Shown one piece after another: positions 4,460 through 23,212 of a stretch of DNA of 23,226 bases (position 1 is its first letter; every line of letters begins with the position of its first letter). Under the pieces are notes generated by a model. That model worked only from the letters and a program-made list of their open reading frames with translations. It did not search any database and had not been told where the DNA came from. The stretch is from Candidatus Zixiibacteriota bacterium. Lineage in GTDB: Bacteria; Zixibacteria; MSB-5A5; GN15; PGXB01. The stretch spans positions 2,845,482 through 2,868,707 of the forward strand of contig LS998015.1 of the NCBI GenBank assembly GCA_900498245.1. Direction: 5' to 3'. A program made the translations under genes and the position numbers.

Positions 4460-4815
4460 ACCGGGGTATCGGGCAAAGAATATGCCGGCCAACAAAATAA
4501 AGGATTAGTTCTTATTCTGTTCTCTTTCAAACAGATAGCGAAACAAATCGACCGCTTCAATTGTTTAATATGAATAGAGATACACAACTTGGGATTTCCG
4601 CTTCACTCTGGAGGCGTTGTTTTGTCAACGTTGCAGGGAAGCGAAATGGAGCACAAGGGAGTGCCCGATCGGGATACTTGGTAGTTTCCTAGCCCCCTCT
4701 ACCTTTTCCGGTCGCGCTCCCTTTTTTATTATCCGGACTAGAAAATATCATTGCACATTTTAAGTTCCGCTGTATTCTATAAGTGAAGGCAATAGTCAAG
4801 AATCTTGGGGGATAT
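4460..4815. other. Divergent intergenic region, 356 bases, little recognised
   Basis: This gap separates the leftward RNase H-like/holA unit from the rightward dockerin protein gene, so it should carry promoters for both. For the plus strand the best pair I see is TTGCAC (4751-4756), 16 bases, TATTCT (4773-4778); it is only a fair match to consensus. For the minus strand there is a perfect TTGACA (complement of 4623-4628) but no matching -10 box at 16-18 bases. A ribosome binding site GGGGGA sits before the ATG at 4816. No RNA gene, repeat or convincing hairpin was found. Confidence 0.3.
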
Positions 4816-7800
4816 ATGTTCAGGATTTTTATTATTTTTGCGGTCTTGCTATCTATCTCTGCCTCCATTACGAGTACTGAAGCAAGGAATCTATATAATG
4901 GGGTTTCTATTAAGGCGCAATCGCTGCCGGTAACCCGGTTGGAGCAAGTGAGCCAAGGCATGGATTATATGGCGATCAATTGGCCGGTATATATAGGTGT
5001 ACAGCAAACCGGTGCGGTGGACGCCTCATTCAACTGCTATGGCCAATTCGGCCTTGGTCTTATGGGCAGCGGAGTTGATCCGGCGACAGGTTGGCCACAG
5101 GCGTCATTCGTGACTCCACCGGGAAGTGGAACAGAATATCTGTTCGGCGGCGCCATATGGGTGGGCGGGATTGTAGATCAGGACACATTGGTTTCGGTAG
5201 GGGCCGACGGCTGGCAAATTACGATGGAAATGTGGCCGGCGGGGATGCCGCCGCGACCCGCGATAACCAGATTTAATTATATCGCAGATTATTCCATGCG
5301 GGCCGAGTTCTATGATACTTTGACCGATCCAAATTATGTGGAATCTGATCCTATTGACGGGAGGCCTCATAAGCCGCTTAATATTCGGCTGGTCAATCGC
5401 AGTCATATCTGGCAAGCGGACTCTGCAAACGAAATAATATTATATGATTTGGTCATAACCAATATCGGTTCCAGAACCATTGAAAATGGATATTGCGGAT
5501 TTTATTTTGACGGGGATGTCGCCAACAAAATGACGCAATATTCGGGTTATACTGATGATTTAACCGGCGCAATACGGCCGAATGGAATTGCCTATATAAT
5601 TGATAATGATGGTGACACTCTGCAGGGCAATTTTGACCCGGTATATTCACCGACTAAGGCTTTCTGTTACAAGGTCTCGGAATGCTCAACGCCTATAGTT
5701 GACACCAATTATAACTGGTGGATTTCCGATGCTGAAAGTATTTACGATTTTGGTCCCCGGCATAAAGGAACCCCTTCCGATCCGTTTCGGGATTTTGGCG
5801 GATTCCTTGGAACGCCCGAAGGGGATCGAAACAAATATTACATAATGCGCCACAAGGAGTGGGATTATGATGAGGCTTATATAAAGGTCATAGACAGCAT
5901 CGACACTACCTGGGTCTCCCCGCCCGTCTCTGTGGCAGATTATTTCCAGAGAAGCGACATTCGTTTCCTGATATCCGTGGGGCCATTCAACCTTTCTCCC
6001 GGCGAAAGTTATCGAATCGTATATTCCACTTTTACGGCCGACTCAGTCCATCATGTTATTGGCAACTTAAACAACCTCCCCGACCATCCGGAGCAGTATG
6101 AGGCTAATCTTCATCTCGATAAAATTGTAAGGAGCGGCGAAATTGCCGATTCTCTGGCGGGCCTTATTACTGACTGGAATAATCCGATCATAGGTTTAAG
6201 ATCGATATATCGGAACGAAGACTCCGTGGTTATCGAATGGGACCCCTGGGTTTTCGACAATGTTGACGGTTATGAATTGTACTTGTCTCCGGTGTCATAT
6301 GATTCCTTCCCATACCCCGGAGTTGTTCCGCCATGGCTGAAGCCCGAATTTCTCAATGAATATGCAAGCGTGGGAGTAGCGGAACAATTCACCTTTACAG
6401 GCCTCGATCCGGACAAAGTCTATTTTGTCAATGTGGCCAATCGCTCCGGGGGTGATATTGGTGATGCCGGCGTACCAATTTTTGTCAAACAGAGCAAACC
6501 TCTGATTGCCCCGGACGTGAATAATGAATTCATTTTTGCTCGCCCCGGCGATCCGGCCCATGTTGCCTGGCATCCCTTATCGGGCTTCAATATAGATCAT
6601 TATAATATTTATAGGTTTACTGACAGCATTGAGGCGGCGGCCAAATACCTTCCCTTCTATGACAGCGGTTATTGCGCTCAATTTATCACTTCCCGGGATA
6701 CTTTCAATGCATACGGCAGGAATTATTATTACTATGCTATTGCCCCCTTTATTCAGATCGGCTCGAGCGATAGTAATTATGCCGACTATGGCGCGAAAGA
6801 CGGATATTTATATGCTGTCTCTGCGGTGGACAATAATGGGTTTGAATCGCCTTTTTCCAAAAATATTTATTTCAACTGGCGCCAAAGCCGGACCAAAGAT
6901 ATTCTTGTAGTAGTCAACCGTATCAGCAATGCGGTGGATTTGGTAACTTATAAAATCATCAAGGATTTTTATGATTCAGTACTGGCAGGATATGATTATG
7001 ATTTCTTTAATATTACCGACTCCATGAAAAATCCCGTCTGTAGCGGACAGGCGGCACTATGCCTGGACTGGCATGACCTTCTCCCCTATCAATTCGTAAT
7101 AATTGAAGATGGATTTTCAGGGCAATCGGATAATGTCAGTTTCGAAAAGTATGGCCATGCTTATTCGCGTTACCTTGAGTCGGGCGGAAAACTGTGCATT
7201 TTCGGGTCGTTGCTCGATTATATGGGCTTTTCTAATCCATATCAATTTGCACCTGGATTTTATGCTGTCAATAACTCTTTCCTTCAAAAATACTTTGCCA
7301 TCGATTCAGTCTACTGCATCGGTCTTGATTATTATTATTTCAATTCCGCGCCGCCTTATGTGGATTCTCTATTTGGCTTCGTGACCGCCGAAAGCACCTT
7401 GCCGGGAGTTCCCTCTTTATCCTACGACACGACTCGCTATCCTTTTTATGGCATGATGGAGACCTTATGGCCGCACAATACGGCACCCGGGGTTTCAATA
7501 TTTAGACCCCGTGACGACGCCGTAATCACTCATCGTTACAGATCACTCATGCCGGAGAAGTCGCGGCTCGAAAACGGCTGTGCCGGGCTTGAAACCGATG
7601 TGCCGGGAACGAGAACCTATTTGTTCGGATTCCGTTTATGGTATATGAATTACGGTGACGCCCGCAGTCTGATTCAATATATGCTTGAAGACCGGGCTAC
7701 GTCATATGTCTGCGGCGATATAAATAACGACGGTGATTTGAATCTATCCGATATAATTGCGCTTATCAATTACATATATAAAAGTGGATCGGAGCCGAAT

Positions 7801-7944
7801 CCTTATGAAGTGGCCGATATCAACAACCGTGCCGGAATAAATATCATGGATATCGCCTGGTTAATCAATTATTTGTATCATGACGGTCCGACTCCGTCAT
7901 GCCGCCTTTCAAATGATGTAAAATCGATTGGAAATGATAAATGA
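4816..7944 (+). CDS. Large secreted protein with Fn3-like regions and C-terminal dockerin
   Basis: The 1042-residue product begins with a signal peptide (MFRIFIIFAVLLSISAS, cleavage near TEA). I take the ATG at 4816, which has GGGGGA in front, over a GTG at 4783 that would spoil the signal. Two beta-sandwich regions of fibronectin type III character are seen (SVVIEWDPWVFDNVDGYELY, about 480-505, and VAWHPLSGFNIDHYNIYRF, about 580-600). A mixed alpha/beta domain of unclear family follows (about 690-860: DILVVVNRIS, FVIIEDGFSG, ESGGKLCIFGS). The end is a dockerin: GDINNDGDLNLSDIIALINY with a full calcium loop, then a second repeat in which the loop is degenerate (ADINNRAGINIMD). No cohesin is visible in the window. 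It stands alone and converges with the dgt operon, leaving only 10 bases between. Confidence 0.8.
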   Translation: MFRIFIIFAVLLSISASITSTEARNLYNGVSIKAQSLPVTRLEQVSQGMDYMAINWPVYIGVQQTGAVDASFNCYGQFGLGLMGSGVDPATGWPQASFVTPPGSGTEYLFGGAIWVGGIVDQDTLVSVGADGWQITMEMWPAGMPPRPAITRFNYIADYSMRAEFYDTLTDPNYVESDPIDGRPHKPLNIRLVNRSHIWQADSANEIILYDLVITNIGSRTIENGYCGFYFDGDVANKMTQYSGYTDDLTGAIRPNGIAYIIDNDGDTLQGNFDPVYSPTKAFCYKVSECSTPIVDTNYNWWISDAESIYDFGPRHKGTPSDPFRDFGGFLGTPEGDRNKYYIMRHKEWDYDEAYIKVIDSIDTTWVSPPVSVADYFQRSDIRFLISVGPFNLSPGESYRIVYSTFTADSVHHVIGNLNNLPDHPEQYEANLHLDKIVRSGEIADSLAGLITDWNNPIIGLRSIYRNEDSVVIEWDPWVFDNVDGYELYLSPVSYDSFPYPGVVPPWLKPEFLNEYASVGVAEQFTFTGLDPDKVYFVNVANRSGGDIGDAGVPIFVKQSKPLIAPDVNNEFIFARPGDPAHVAWHPLSGFNIDHYNIYRFTDSIEAAAKYLPFYDSGYCAQFITSRDTFNAYGRNYYYYAIAPFIQIGSSDSNYADYGAKDGYLYAVSAVDNNGFESPFSKNIYFNWRQSRTKDILVVVNRISNAVDLVTYKIIKDFYDSVLAGYDYDFFNITDSMKNPVCSGQAALCLDWHDLLPYQFVIIEDGFSGQSDNVSFEKYGHAYSRYLESGGKLCIFGSLLDYMGFSNPYQFAPGFYAVNNSFLQKYFAIDSVYCIGLDYYYFNSAPPYVDSLFGFVTAESTLPGVPSLSYDTTRYPFYGMMETLWPHNTAPGVSIFRPRDDAVITHRYRSLMPEKSRLENGCAGLETDVPGTRTYLFGFRLWYMNYGDARSLIQYMLEDRATSYVCGDINNDGDLNLSDIIALINYIYKSGSEPNPYEVADINNRAGINIMDIAWLINYLYHDGPTPSCRLSNDVKSIGNDK

Positions 7945-19293: not shown

Positions 19294-20322
19294 CTAATCG
19301 CGGCGGCTCTTTATCAAAACTTTGGCATACTGCGGCATATTTTCCAGGACTTTGCCGGTTCCGCGGACAACGCAGGTCAGAGGATCTTCTGCAACATTAA
19401 CCGGCAGATTGGTTTCTTGGCGAAGCCGCTTGTCCAGACAACGCAACAGGGCTCCCCCGCCGGTCAAAATGATACCGCGATCGAGGATGTCCGATGCCAG
19501 TTCGGGCGGAGTTCGCTCTAACGATTGCCTGACCGCTTCGACAATCCGCTCAATCGGCTCAACTAAGGCTTCTCGTACCTGAACCGATGACAGCCGGAGG
19601 TTCTTGGGCACGCCGGCCACCAGATCCCGTCCCTTGATCTCCATCGATAATTCTTTTTCCATCGGAAAGGCCGAGCCGATTTTTATTTTGATTTCCTCGG
19701 CGGTCAATTCTCCTATAAGCAGGTTATAATTTTTCTTGAGATACATCACAATGGCGTCATTCATTTCGTCGCCGGCAATACGGACCGAGATATTGTTGAC
19801 AATGCCATTCAGGGCGATGACCGCGATTTCCGATGTCCCGCCGCCGATATCAATCACCATTATACCGGACGGTTGATCGACCGGGAGCCCCACCCCGATG
19901 GCGGCCGCCATCGGCTCCTGAAGCAGAAAGACCTCCCGGGCCCCGGCATTTTCGGCCGAATCCCGCACGGCACGCTTCTCAACCTCGGTTATTCCGGACG
20001 GGACCGAAATGACAATCCGGGGTTTCATTAAATAGCGATGTTTCACGACCCGCCGGATGAAATCTGACAGAAGCCGCTCCGACATTTCAAAATCGGCAAT
20101 GACACCGTCTTTAAGAGGACGAATGGCGGCGATTTCGCCGGGGGTTCGACCCAGCATCTCTTTGGCCGCCGAGCCGACAGCCAAGACTTTGCCGGTGGCC
20201 CTTTCTATGGCCACCACCGACGGCTCATTGAGGACTATTCCCTGACCCCGGACAAAAACCAGCGTATTGGCGGTTCCGAGATCGATTCCAACATCGCTTG
20301 AAATAAAATCGAAGAAACCCAA
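19294..20322 (-). CDS. mreB: Rod-shape-determining protein MreB
   Basis: This 342-residue actin-like protein forms filaments that guide lateral wall synthesis under the cytoplasmic membrane. The nucleotide-binding motifs are clear: phosphate-1 DLGTANT (14-20), phosphate-2 DIGGGTSE (158-165), EPMAAAIG (136-143) and the adenosine motif [11 protein letters not shown]. The length is normal. The start is TTG at 20322 with AAGGGA about 5 bases upstream, and the first residues [15 protein letters not shown] align with the family. mreC and mreD do not follow; a terminator comes directly after, so mreB is transcribed as a short unit, perhaps with the small upstream open frame. Confidence 0.96.
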
Positions 20323-20569: not shown

Positions 20570-20597
20570 TTGACGCCCAGGGGCAGGGCGTTATATT
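20570..20597 (+). promoter_or_regulatory. Strong sigma-70-type promoter candidate
   Basis: TTGACG (20570-20575, 5 of 6 consensus bases) is followed after 16 bases by TATATT (20592-20597, 5 of 6). Transcription would start near 20604 and run right, into the leader and the Lnt-like and sorting-substrate genes. This is the best promoter match in the window. It points away from mreB. Confidence 0.65.
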
Positions 20598-20654
20598 TAA
20601 GTATCGTAGTGACTCTCAAAAATCCCTGTTTGACTGCTTTTGTATTCAAGATGT

Positions 20655-20678
20655 AAATAAACCTATCGGTTTATTTTA
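20655..20678 (+). terminator. Terminator-like or attenuator hairpin in the leader
   Basis: AAATAAACC (20655-20663) pairs perfectly with GGTTTATTT (20668-20676) around a TATC loop and runs into TTATCC. The 9-base stem is AT-rich and the T-run short, so termination would be partial. It lies about 50 bases after the predicted start, so it could end a short RNA of about 75 bases or act as an attenuator. The AAACC arm could also pair with GGTTT at 20728-20732, an alternative fold. Confidence 0.4.
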
Positions 20679-20793
20679 TCCTCACCAACCACAGGCTTTT
20701 AAAAAACCTTATTGAGCCGTAGGTTAAGGTTTATCAATCGTTCGGGAACGGTCAGGACGCCGATGGCGGTCCCGGAGAAACCGAAATATTTGG

Positions 20794-21519
20794 ATGGGAG
20801 GAATGTTCAGAGGGAAAAACATTCCGTTGATGCTGCGGGAGAATGCTCTTTGGGCCGCCGGGGTGGTACTGCTACTGAATTTCAAATATTTGCCACCCTC
20901 CTGGGATTTGATGTCCCTTTTGGCCCCCTCGCTTTTTATCTGGCGGGCGCGACGATGCAGATATTGTGACGCAATGATATTTGGAGTTGTTACCGGTATA
21001 TGCTGCGCTCCCTTCATATGCAAAAACGATAACAATAGCATTATCGCTATTTTGATTTATTGGCTCTTACTCAGTATCGCATTCTGGTTTATCGCCATTG
21101 CTATCGTTTTCATTACAGGATGGTTTCCCCGAAAAATTTTGCCCCTTTTCATTTTATCGATTCCGATCTTTTTAGAAATTTTTGGATACTCAAATTTCAG
21201 CGATAATCTGCTCCGGACCTTTGGCAACAATAATATCCTGATCGTATCGACATCCATTTTCGGTTCCCTGGCAGTATTCTTCCTGATAATATATCTTAAT
21301 TCAATATTGGCAATCTCTCTGGAAAAATCCAATCGCATCATACTGCAATACAATTATCTTTGTCCTCCCGATGATGGATTCCAATTGTTTCATTTAATTG
21401 AAGAGTTCGCTTCCGTGATTTTACTCCTTACGGCGGACAACCGTGCCCCTCCGCGACGCAAATCAATTTCCTTACTCTGTAATTTTAATTTGTATCACTT
21501 TGAAAAGCGGAGGAGATAA
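20794..21519 (+). CDS. Membrane protein like the transmembrane part of Lnt, no nitrilase domain
   Basis: The 241-residue protein has about five hydrophobic segments (about 18-30, 38-50, 61-73, 82-108, 114-130) plus a strong one at 148-176. The order resembles the membrane domain of apolipoprotein N-acyltransferase: LLLNFKYLPPSWDLMSLLAP early, IPIFLEIFGYSNF with P124 and E128 (the P-x3-E motif), and FGSLAVFFLIIYLNSILA with Asn169. In full Lnt a nitrilase-type catalytic domain follows; here only about 65 residues follow and they look unrelated, so no acyltransferase activity is expected. No hidden continuation fits before the next gene. The start may be ATG 20794 or 20803; neither has a well-spaced binding site. 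Its stop overlaps the next ATG (TAATG), linking it to the exosortase substrate. The homology is by pattern. Confidence 0.55.
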   Translation: MGGMFRGKNIPLMLRENALWAAGVVLLLNFKYLPPSWDLMSLLAPSLFIWRARRCRYCDAMIFGVVTGICCAPFICKNDNNSIIAILIYWLLLSIAFWFIAIAIVFITGWFPRKILPLFILSIPIFLEIFGYSNFSDNLLRTFGNNNILIVSTSIFGSLAVFFLIIYLNSILAISLEKSNRIILQYNYLCPPDDGFQLFHLIEEFASVILLLTADNRAPPRRKSISLLCNFNLYHFEKRRR

Positions 21520-22079
21520 TGAAGGCTTTGTTTAGAAAATCATTAATTTGTTTCGGATTAATTATTCCCTTATTGACCGCGACTGCACATAACACTCTGG
21601 CATTTACAATATCCAATTCAGCGGACACCCTATCAATCCCCGGTGCTATCACTTTCATTTGGGTTGTAACTCCGGGAGCGAGTGAATCCTTTAAGGACTT
21701 CCATGTATGGACAGATGATTACGCGATTGGAAATTACAATAATGCCAGCATGCCGGCAGGCTGGAATTTCAGTGTCACCAGTACTGCCAGCGGAAATTGG
21801 CTGAATTTCTATGGCGGTACCGCTCAGACGGGAGCCTCGACATTCAGTGTCAGGTATGTGGGAAATCTGAAATTGGGTTATCGGGCGGTTTGGAAATTGA
21901 CTTCCGATGGCAACGACAATGTGGCCGACGGCGTAATTGCAGGCGGTTACGGGGCAGCGGCCCCTTCGGCGGCTCAAGTCCCCGGCCTTACCTATCCGGG
22001 CTTATTTCTCCTATTATTATTGATCCTTCTTTCCGGATTCCTAATTTTGCGGCGAAAAAAAAGGATGGTATCGTACTGA
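21519..22079 (+). CDS. Secreted protein with IPTLxxWG-like exosortase sorting tail
   Basis: The 186-residue product has a signal peptide (residues 1-28, ending TLA) and a beta-rich, Cys-free body (FTISNSADTLSIPGAI, ESFKDFHVWTDDYAIGN, LGYRAVWKLTSDGNDN). The tail is a Gly/Ala/Pro linker, VPGLTYPG (154-161), a 16-residue Leu-rich helix and RRKKR. That three-part layout is an exosortase sorting signal, and VP-x-L-T-x-x-G fits a relaxed form of the IPTLSxWG box used by exosortase H. A strong GGAGGAG binding site precedes the ATG. The exosortase encoded about 600 bases away, facing it, is the likely processing enzyme. The function of the body is unknown. Confidence 0.75.
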   Translation: MKALFRKSLICFGLIIPLLTATAHNTLAFTISNSADTLSIPGAITFIWVVTPGASESFKDFHVWTDDYAIGNYNNASMPAGWNFSVTSTASGNWLNFYGGTAQTGASTFSVRYVGNLKLGYRAVWKLTSDGNDNVADGVIAGGYGAAAPSAAQVPGLTYPGLFLLLLLILLSGFLILRRKKRMVSY

Positions 22080-22098
22080 GTAACGTGAGTCATTAAAG

Positions 22099-22145
22099 AT
22101 TGAATCATAGCTGTCTATGGTGAGGAAGACGGCGTATGGTTCAAT
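22099..22145. repeat. Inverted repeat between convergent genes
   Basis: ATTGAATCATA (22099-22109) can pair with TATGGTTCAAT (22135-22145) over 11 positions with one G-U pair, with a 25-base loop. A smaller dyad CATAG-CTGT-CTATG (22106-22119) competes with it. There is no T-run on either strand, so this is at best a weak terminator or an RNA end-protecting hairpin. Confidence 0.35.
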
Positions 22146-22161
22146 AGGGGGAGAGCGCCGA

Positions 22162-22704
22162 TCAGTTCGGCGTCCCTTGATCGGCATCTCCCCGGCTATT
22201 TGCCCGAGTGCGGGAAAAATCGCTCTTCCCCCGGCGCATTCTCCTTTTGAGAAGACCTGACAATTCCGATAAAATTTCAGGATAAAAAAGAATCCAGAGC
22301 ACCAGGGGCAGGGCATCATTAATTAAGAAGAAAGGAAAGGTGCGTCGAAAGAAGGCTCGTGAAAAATGATATTGTTCGGAAAAATAATATACCGACCACG
22401 ATAATAGAATATGAAATCCGGCCAGAATAATCAGCCCCGCGACAAGCGCCACCAAAGTTTTTTTCCACTTTTTGAATATTCCCGGCATCGCCAGGACCAG
22501 CGCGGTATAGGGGACAATATTAGTAAAATGGTCAATAACCCACGATAATAGCCATTTTTTTACCCCGACCCATTGGAAAAAAGGCATGGCCGCCGGCGCC
22601 AATAAATGCGGATACAGAGATTGCAGGCGCCAGAACCACAGGTACCCCAGAATAAGGGAAAAGGATATCAATTTAAGCAGAAATATCAGCCGGCTTTTTT
22701 TCAT
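22162..22704 (-). CDS. Exosortase H-associated membrane protein
   Basis: The 180-residue protein has about four membrane segments (LIFLLKLISFSLILGYLWFW near residue 6, VPYTALVLAM near 64, TLVALVAGLIILAGFHILLS near 83, and FFLINDALPLVLWILFYP near 125). A basic tail follows (LKRRMRRGK). Its position directly after, and overlapping, the exosortase gene matches the xrtH-associated membrane protein family, and the length and helix layout fit. I take the ATG at 22704, which has GGTGG about 6 bases before it; this gives a 32-base overlap. A GTG or other start further up (22731) would overlap more. Its role in sorting is unknown; it probably helps the exosortase in the membrane. Confidence 0.68.
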   Translation of the reverse strand: MKKSRLIFLLKLISFSLILGYLWFWRLQSLYPHLLAPAAMPFFQWVGVKKWLLSWVIDHFTNIVPYTALVLAMPGIFKKWKKTLVALVAGLIILAGFHILLSWSVYYFSEQYHFSRAFFRRTFPFFLINDALPLVLWILFYPEILSELSGLLKRRMRRGKSDFSRTRANSRGDADQGTPN

Positions 22705-23212
22705 TATAGACCACCAGATATATCCATGCAATCCAGACGGCGCTTATCATTAATATCAAGGTTCCTTGCCAGAAATAAAGGTGCATAAAATCAAACAGCC
22801 GTTGCGAAACCGAGCCGGCAAGCAACAGGAAAATTATCCGAATAATATTGAGAATATATATGGCCGGAACTCCCAATGCGATACCTAGTATCTTCTTTTT
22901 AATGGGAGCGGCAAAAGCCAGGACGGCAGCCACGAAAATAAGCGCTTCAAAGAAACCGGTGCATTCGTCGATGATTTCTACTTGAAAACCACGGTAAGTC
23001 ACTCTGGCGTCCTGAATAGATACCCCCGATGAAAAGATCGAAAGGCTTTTGCCCGCAATTGCGGCGGTCGCGTTCATCATCCAGAGCGTTTGTTCATGAT
23101 AGGAGGTGATGAATTGGGAATAGAGTATGCCTACAAGAATTAAAAGGATAAGGAATTTTAATATGAATTTGATAGCCGGCCGGTTCGCCAAGAGGGACGT
23201 TTTCGGATTCAT
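22673..23212 (-). CDS. xrtH: Exosortase, XrtH type
   Basis: This 179-residue multi-pass membrane protein has the exosortase catalytic set: Cys84 in IDECTGFFEA, Arg125 in LNIIRI and His144 in FDFMHLYFWQG, each next to a membrane helix. Exosortases are membrane cysteine peptidases or transpeptidases that cut sorting tails on the outer face of the cytoplasmic membrane. The compact size without a C-terminal EpsI domain, together with the partner membrane protein and the VPGLTYPG-tailed protein nearby, points to the H type (IPTLxxWG-CTERM). The ATG at 23212 is 14 bases from the window edge, so the promoter is not visible and no binding site is seen in those bases. The gene is complete. Confidence 0.85.
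   Translation of the reverse strand: MNPKTSLLANRPAIKFILKFLILLILVGILYSQFITSYHEQTLWMMNATAAIAGKSLSIFSSGVSIQDARVTYRGFQVEIIDECTGFFEALIFVAAVLAFAAPIKKKILGIALGVPAIYILNIIRIIFLLLAGSVSQRLFDFMHLYFWQGTLILMISAVWIAWIYLVVYNEKKPADISA

Follow-up and report, generated by a model that had tools for sequence, protein, structure and literature searches.

Near one end of the window, i.e., the whole stretch of 23,226 nucleotides of Candidatus Zixiibacteriota DNA analyzed here, genes for an exosortase, a partner membrane protein and a protein with a sorting tail are found next to a fourth gene that encodes another membrane protein. What does this fourth protein, termed the companion in the following, contribute to exosortase-dependent sorting, and why does its gene directly precede that of the substrate?

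Enzyme, partner and substrate of the locus

The window genome consists of a single contig of 3.5 Mb; it is close to an uncultured Zixibacteria MAG, the sole relative obtained from a contig scan. All four open reading frames were confirmed at the coordinates of the initial annotation (Table 1). The companion and substrate genes overlap in the sequence TAATG, and the partner and xrtH genes overlap by 29 nt. Elsewhere in the window, positions 4783-7944 encode a secreted protein of 1053 aa with two dockerin-like repeats at its end, and for positions 19294-20322 we observed that in several relatives (L037, L038, L039) xrtH and the partner gene lie directly upstream of mreB, without a companion unit.

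Table 1 Features of the exosortase H locus, in positions of the window.
Feature	Position	Strand	Basis
Sigma-70-like promoter match upstream of companion, TTGACG-16-TATATT	20570-20597	+	Consensus match only; weak
Companion membrane protein gene	20794-21519	+	Lnt N-terminal-type domain, spacer and RAPP core
Conserved Asn169 codon, last membrane helix, start of 48-residue ruler	21298-21300	+	Alignment
RAPP core R217 A218 P219 P220, codons CGT GCC CCT CCG	21442-21453	+	Alignment of members
CCTCCGC, beginning in the PP codons, complementary to the substrate Shine-Dalgarno (21507-21513)	21448-21454	+	Sequence
Shine-Dalgarno of substrate gene, GCGGAGG	21507-21513	+	Sequence
TAATG, overlap of companion stop and substrate start	21517-21521	+	Sequence
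Exosortase H substrate gene	21519-22079	+	Signal peptide and body with a sorting tail at the C-terminus
Sorting tail: VPGLTYPG, hydrophobic helix, RRKKR	21978-22064	+	Motif and syntenic place
Partner membrane protein gene	22162-22701	-	Divergent XrtH_assoc (NF041730) relative
Exosortase H gene xrtH	22673-23212	-	TIGR04177 match and catalytic residues
xrtH His144 codon	22781-22783	-	Invariant in 21 relatives
xrtH Arg125 codon	22838-22840	-	Invariant in 21 relatives
xrtH Cys84 codon	22961-22963	-	Invariant in 21 relatives

Profile search placed the xrtH product in the exosortase family, with 88.2 bits on the exosortase H model TIGR04177, a narrow pass at a cut-off of 86. The same protein scored 89.5 on archaeosortase B, far under that model's own cut-off of 150. 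The Cys/Arg/His set that had been claimed for the enzyme corresponds to C84, R125 and H144, all of which are invariant among the relatives compared. The protein is a predicted exosortase H, with cleavage/transfer of IPTL-tailed substrates as its expected activity. A partner gene comes after xrtH in nearly all related loci. The window partner did not match the model of XrtH-associated membrane proteins (NF041730), on which partners from a second xrtH lineage scored 29.7 and 26.4 at a cut-off of 35; a profile comparison linked the window-type partners to this second-lineage group with a probability of 91% (E 1.1e-6). We assign the window protein as a putative coupled exosortase H partner and divergent relative of XrtH_assoc. 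In genome G072, the partner gene (L047:1940-2409) is spread over two overlapping frames, which probably reflects a frameshift or a sequencing error.

The window substrate carries a signal peptide, a P-x-L-x-x-x-G-type motif, a hydrophobic helix and a basic end. The tail described in the initial annotation is present with all its parts, but its motif is degenerate and was left unmatched by the IPTL-CTERM model TIGR04174, both as window protein and in the search of its own genome. The protein could still be recognized as a substrate because the genes at the same syntenic place in the two nearest relatives, G001 and G004, end in PTLTEWG and PSLTTYG. On TIGR04174, the G001 substrate scored 23.6 (cut-off 20.5) in the genome search and 19.8 as protein. 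Judged by its sequence, the window protein is built like an IPTL substrate while lying outside the matches of TIGR04174. The identities that had been given to enzyme, partner and substrate are correct.

Linkage of the four genes, which had been expected in related genomes, is kept in G001 and G004, but in G005, G008 and G011 xrtH and the partner gene directly adjoin mreB and the companion-substrate unit is missing. In some genomes this unit adjoins xrtH and in others it lies far from it; the xrtH pair and the unit are thus separable modules. The proposal of one dedicated substrate did not hold, as the window genome has at least two companion-substrate units. The second one, found by profile search at ~200 kb (G000:C1:200174), comprises an RGPP companion with the end EVRGPPSAIL followed by a PSLTVWG-tailed protein. 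Further IPTL tails in this genome were counted by profile searches as well, and the IPTL model returned one chance match, in an MFS transporter.

The companion protein and its C-terminal motif

The companion is a multi-pass protein of 241 aa with an Lnt N-terminal-type domain at approximately residues 19-181. A second ATG at 20803, preceded by GGGAGGA, may be its true start. Promoter consensus matches such as the one listed upstream of the gene occurred 11 times in the region at an expectation of 5.6. The window companion itself had no match in Pfam or NCBIfam. PF20154 was found above its cut-off in the G004 orthologue and in other members at the same relative place in xrtH loci. Compared by hhalign with full-length Lnt, the window subfamily reached a probability of 91% (E 9.7e-7) and the whole companion family one of 97.8% (E 1.1e-12). 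The similarity stops near residue 181, where the nitrilase domain would start. An AlphaFold model of the companion built from two sequences had a pLDDT of 42.

Given this end of the similarity, the length of 241 aa and the lack of a nitrilase domain with its catalytic triad, the companion is not an Lnt enzyme; it is best described as a stand-alone copy of the Lnt N-terminal membrane domain (PF20154). The clear homology could also fit an active Lnt fragment or a decaying lnt duplicate. We regard this as very improbable, since members of ~220-360 aa offer no room for a nitrilase domain and full-length lnt genes are present elsewhere in the same genomes. In the tree, whose long branches leave fine placement unsure, one branch with a support of 100/99 splits all stand-alone copies from all 15 full-length Lnt domains. 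Size and tree, together with the spacing and the invariant motif described below, contradict a fragment or decaying duplicate.

Near the C-terminus, 57 of the 57 companion-family members with an intact end carry R[A/G/S/V]PP, at 0-24 residues from the stop, in comparison to 0/712 neighboring ORFs of the same loci with R[AGSV]PP in their last 35 residues. R217, P219 and P220 are the sole invariant columns in an alignment of 35 members with ~17% identity to the window protein. The second position is Ala or Gly, with Ser or Val being rare. The codons of the motif differ at their wobble positions across members, which argues that selection acts on its amino acids. Further complete members recovered by profile search all had the motif, a partial rather than blind test because the profile includes the motif columns.

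The last membrane helix contains a conserved Asn, which precedes the motif Arg by 48 residues in 49/57 members and by 47-50 residues in all 57. The linker in between is nearly unconserved, with an entropy of 3-4 bits at most positions. Between two conserved positions within the membrane domain, a comparison stretch varied in length from 101 to 109 residues. At the predicted stall, the C-terminal end of the last helix would lie ~43 residues from the peptidyl-transferase center. In E. coli model proteins, the pull of a helix on the chain ends when its C-terminal end is ~45 residues from this center (PMC7886326). On the basis of this published value, we infer that the stall is reached just when insertion of the last helix is complete.

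The main text of a proteome-wide survey lists RAPP/RGPP with the strongest stall cores known, and describes them as depleted from proteomes (PMC12992588). According to the same text, Gly at position 2 of ApdA/ApdP is fully permissive or better, while Ser and Val are partly so in some contexts. However, when proteins of E. coli and B. subtilis that carry RAPP-like motifs were tested in another study, most showed no efficient stalling (PMC10987492), and a motif of this kind is therefore not by itself proof of stalling. Taken together with the published RAPP biochemistry, the C-terminus of the companion represents a candidate ribosome-arrest core.

The usual task of the membrane domain in Lnt is the handling of phospholipid and lipoprotein. 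As a mature membrane protein, the companion might accordingly function together with exosortase H, e.g., by binding the lipid acceptor or the substrate, and its R[AG]PP tail might serve as a docking peptide. This would agree with the conservation of the domain as one group and with its association with xrtH, but the 0-24 residues that follow the motif show no conservation, and the linker has a fixed length without a conserved sequence, for which the ribosomal exit tunnel provides the better fit. The strength and the proteome-wide depletion of RAPP/RGPP cores also speak against a docking peptide, and we consider it unlikely. Docking and arrest are not mutually exclusive, and both could be true.

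Genomic association and coupling with the downstream gene

Directly downstream and on the same strand of 46/57 companions lies a gene with an IPTL-type tail (P-x-L-T-x-x-G, helix, basic tail), in comparison to 0/15 for full-length lnt genes. Among the other 11 companions, three (L073, L104, L144) run off their contigs, one (L079) is followed by the divergent tail PAITPVG and one (L128) has an IPTL-model match at G118:C5:30181; for those of L074 and L090, the first copy of L072 and three copies of L097, the next ORF is masked, short or very long. Nearly every chosen downstream start opens with a signal-peptide-like sequence. In locus L100, a companion copy ending in PRAPPA (L100:5442-6131) is found upstream of a 364-aa protein (L100:6217-7308) with its IPTL motif 105 residues from the C-terminus, which resembles the midcut-by-XrtH proteins of NCBIfam. 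Genome G033 (L097, L072) has seven companion-family matches, several of which precede very large ORFs (~730-1600 aa).

Among 128 genomes of the class, xrtH was found in 34 of the 36 companion carriers (Fisher p=1.8e-17, a value that overstates the number of independent events because the genomes are related). The two carriers without an xrtH call are G014, where split xrtH pieces are present, and G074, which is 69% complete. Conversely, 14 xrtH genomes of the class had no detected companion, and several of these are incomplete assemblies. In a sample of 386 genomes, no family member was found outside the class except in G188, which belongs to another phylum and holds the whole unit; the remaining matches were full-length Lnt frames. 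The phyla of G187 and G188 were sampled with one genome each. That most loci come from one class would fit a linkage by chance or by shared ancestry of a few loci. The probability of this is in our view negligible: the units occupy numerous unrelated sites, with several units in one genome and the low identity given above, and the one in G188 lies in a different phylum. Scattered and diverged units thus contradict such an origin.

Based on the TAATG overlap, translational coupling from companion to substrate is likely. The complementarity of CCTCCGC to the substrate Shine-Dalgarno is suggestive only, because the fold of the window was no better than that of shuffled sequences (z-score -0.42). 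Of 11 windows tested, one had duplexes between the motif region and its own start region that beat swapped pairs (p=0.005), and masking the stall site with a ribosome lowered the cost of opening the start weakly (p=0.03-0.16). With these values, a stem occluding the Shine-Dalgarno under control of the stall was rejected as a general feature. Loci may differ in how the two genes are coupled, or the coupling may depend on tethering of the mRNA at the membrane.

A proposed insertion-sensing arrest peptide and its relation to known systems

We consider it probable that the companion is a membrane-integrated regulatory nascent chain, i.e., an insertion-sensing arrest peptide controlling exosortase H substrates. 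The computed basis of this reading is formed by domain homology, motif, spacing, operon structure and co-occurrence with xrtH; stalling as such is taken over from published RAPP work. During synthesis, the Lnt-type domain would be inserted into the membrane and the ribosome would stall at R-A/G-P-P, with the last membrane helix ~43-60 residues from the peptidyl-transferase center and integration nearly complete. Release would follow once the domain is correctly integrated, folds or binds a ligand and thereby pulls the chain; failure would prolong the stall. While stalled, the ribosome would alter how the downstream cistron, which encodes a protein with signal peptide and exosortase H tail, is translated; it could do so by opening a structure that covers the Shine-Dalgarno of this cistron or by keeping the mRNA at the membrane. 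In this way, the cell could adjust substrate supply to conditions in the membrane or to those of the sorting machinery, in a manner similar to the SecM control of SecA. Which signal is sensed and in which direction regulation acts we purely infer; we speculate that the ligand is a phospholipid or the exosortase lipid acceptor, as suggested by the Lnt origin of the domain. A more specific version, which we put forward tentatively, is an arrest system dedicated to exosortase cargo, in which the domain, while it is being inserted, would sense either the lipid acceptor or the machinery for sorting, and local cargo synthesis next to the enzyme would be governed by the RAPP stall.

The stall might instead serve delivery and not feedback, with the anchored chain tethering the bicistronic mRNA so that the substrate is made beside translocon and exosortase. 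The multi-pass companion, its gene directly upstream on the same strand, the signal-peptide-like starts of nearly all downstream genes and its position before a substrate rather than an enzyme, unlike the sec and yidC arrest peptides, would all be in line with such a role. We nonetheless hold it to be somewhat doubtful, as substrates without companion exist. G095 and G121 have 12 and 18 IPTL matches, yet one companion each (on G095:C1 and G121:C1, near xrtH and one IPTL gene), and most of their cargo thus lacks a companion.

Regulation of exosortases and their acceptor are poorly known. A family that apparently pauses its own translation at a fixed post-insertion distance, in front of cargo genes, offers a testable handle on both, and points to a bacterial use of translation pausing in the control of proteins bound for exosortase sorting. 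If true, this would be the first arrest peptide tied to exosortase sorting; to our knowledge, it would also be the first in which an insertion ruler of 48 residues is fixed throughout a protein family. RAPP arrest peptides would be extended to a conserved multi-pass sensor domain, and 57 sequences with a fixed ruler and near-random linkers would provide a natural force-sensor set for studies of membrane insertion.

Arrest peptides have been described before, and so has exosortase H; what appears new is the companion family, as well as the connection of the two. No NCBIfam model names the Lnt-N/RAPP companion above its cut-off. In the literature searched, no work joining arrest peptides with exosortases or Zixibacteria with exosortases was found, IPTL-CTERM occurred in one paper, on Methylomirabilis S-layers, and the main text of the RAPP survey (PMC12992588) has no mention of exosortase, CTERM or N-acyltransferase. 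As far as this literature goes, exosortase systems are not known to include the fourth gene, in agreement with the initial annotation; as a candidate arrest peptide with an Lnt-N domain, it is more than the accessory gene that the word 'extra' implied.

With the exosortase H/IPTL-CTERM system (TIGR04177, TIGR04174, NF041730, NF033207), the locus shares enzyme, partner membrane protein and tail architecture, but the tail of the window substrate is degenerate (VPGLTYPG). Lnt (TIGR00546) has the homologous N-terminal membrane domain PF20154, whereas the companion has a RAPP tail and no catalytic nitrilase domain. As described in the main texts on RAPP/RGPP arrest peptides (ApdA, ApdP, ApcA, the RQH family, CruR, Streptomyces uORFs; PMC7897499, PMC10951233, PMC10987492, PMC12992588), these peptides have the same C-terminal R-A/G-P-P core, tolerate the same residues at position 2, and are likewise secretory or membrane proteins of less than ~300 aa upstream of a gene that may be regulated. 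In contrast to them, the companions share a conserved multi-pass Lnt-type domain with a fixed 48-residue spacing from helix to core, and precede exosortase substrate genes, which those main texts do not feature. As proposed for the companion, SecM-secA and MifM/CliM-yidC place a regulatory nascent membrane or secretory chain, released by pulling, upstream of its target gene; the putative target of the companion, however, is a sorted cargo protein and not a component of translocase or insertase.
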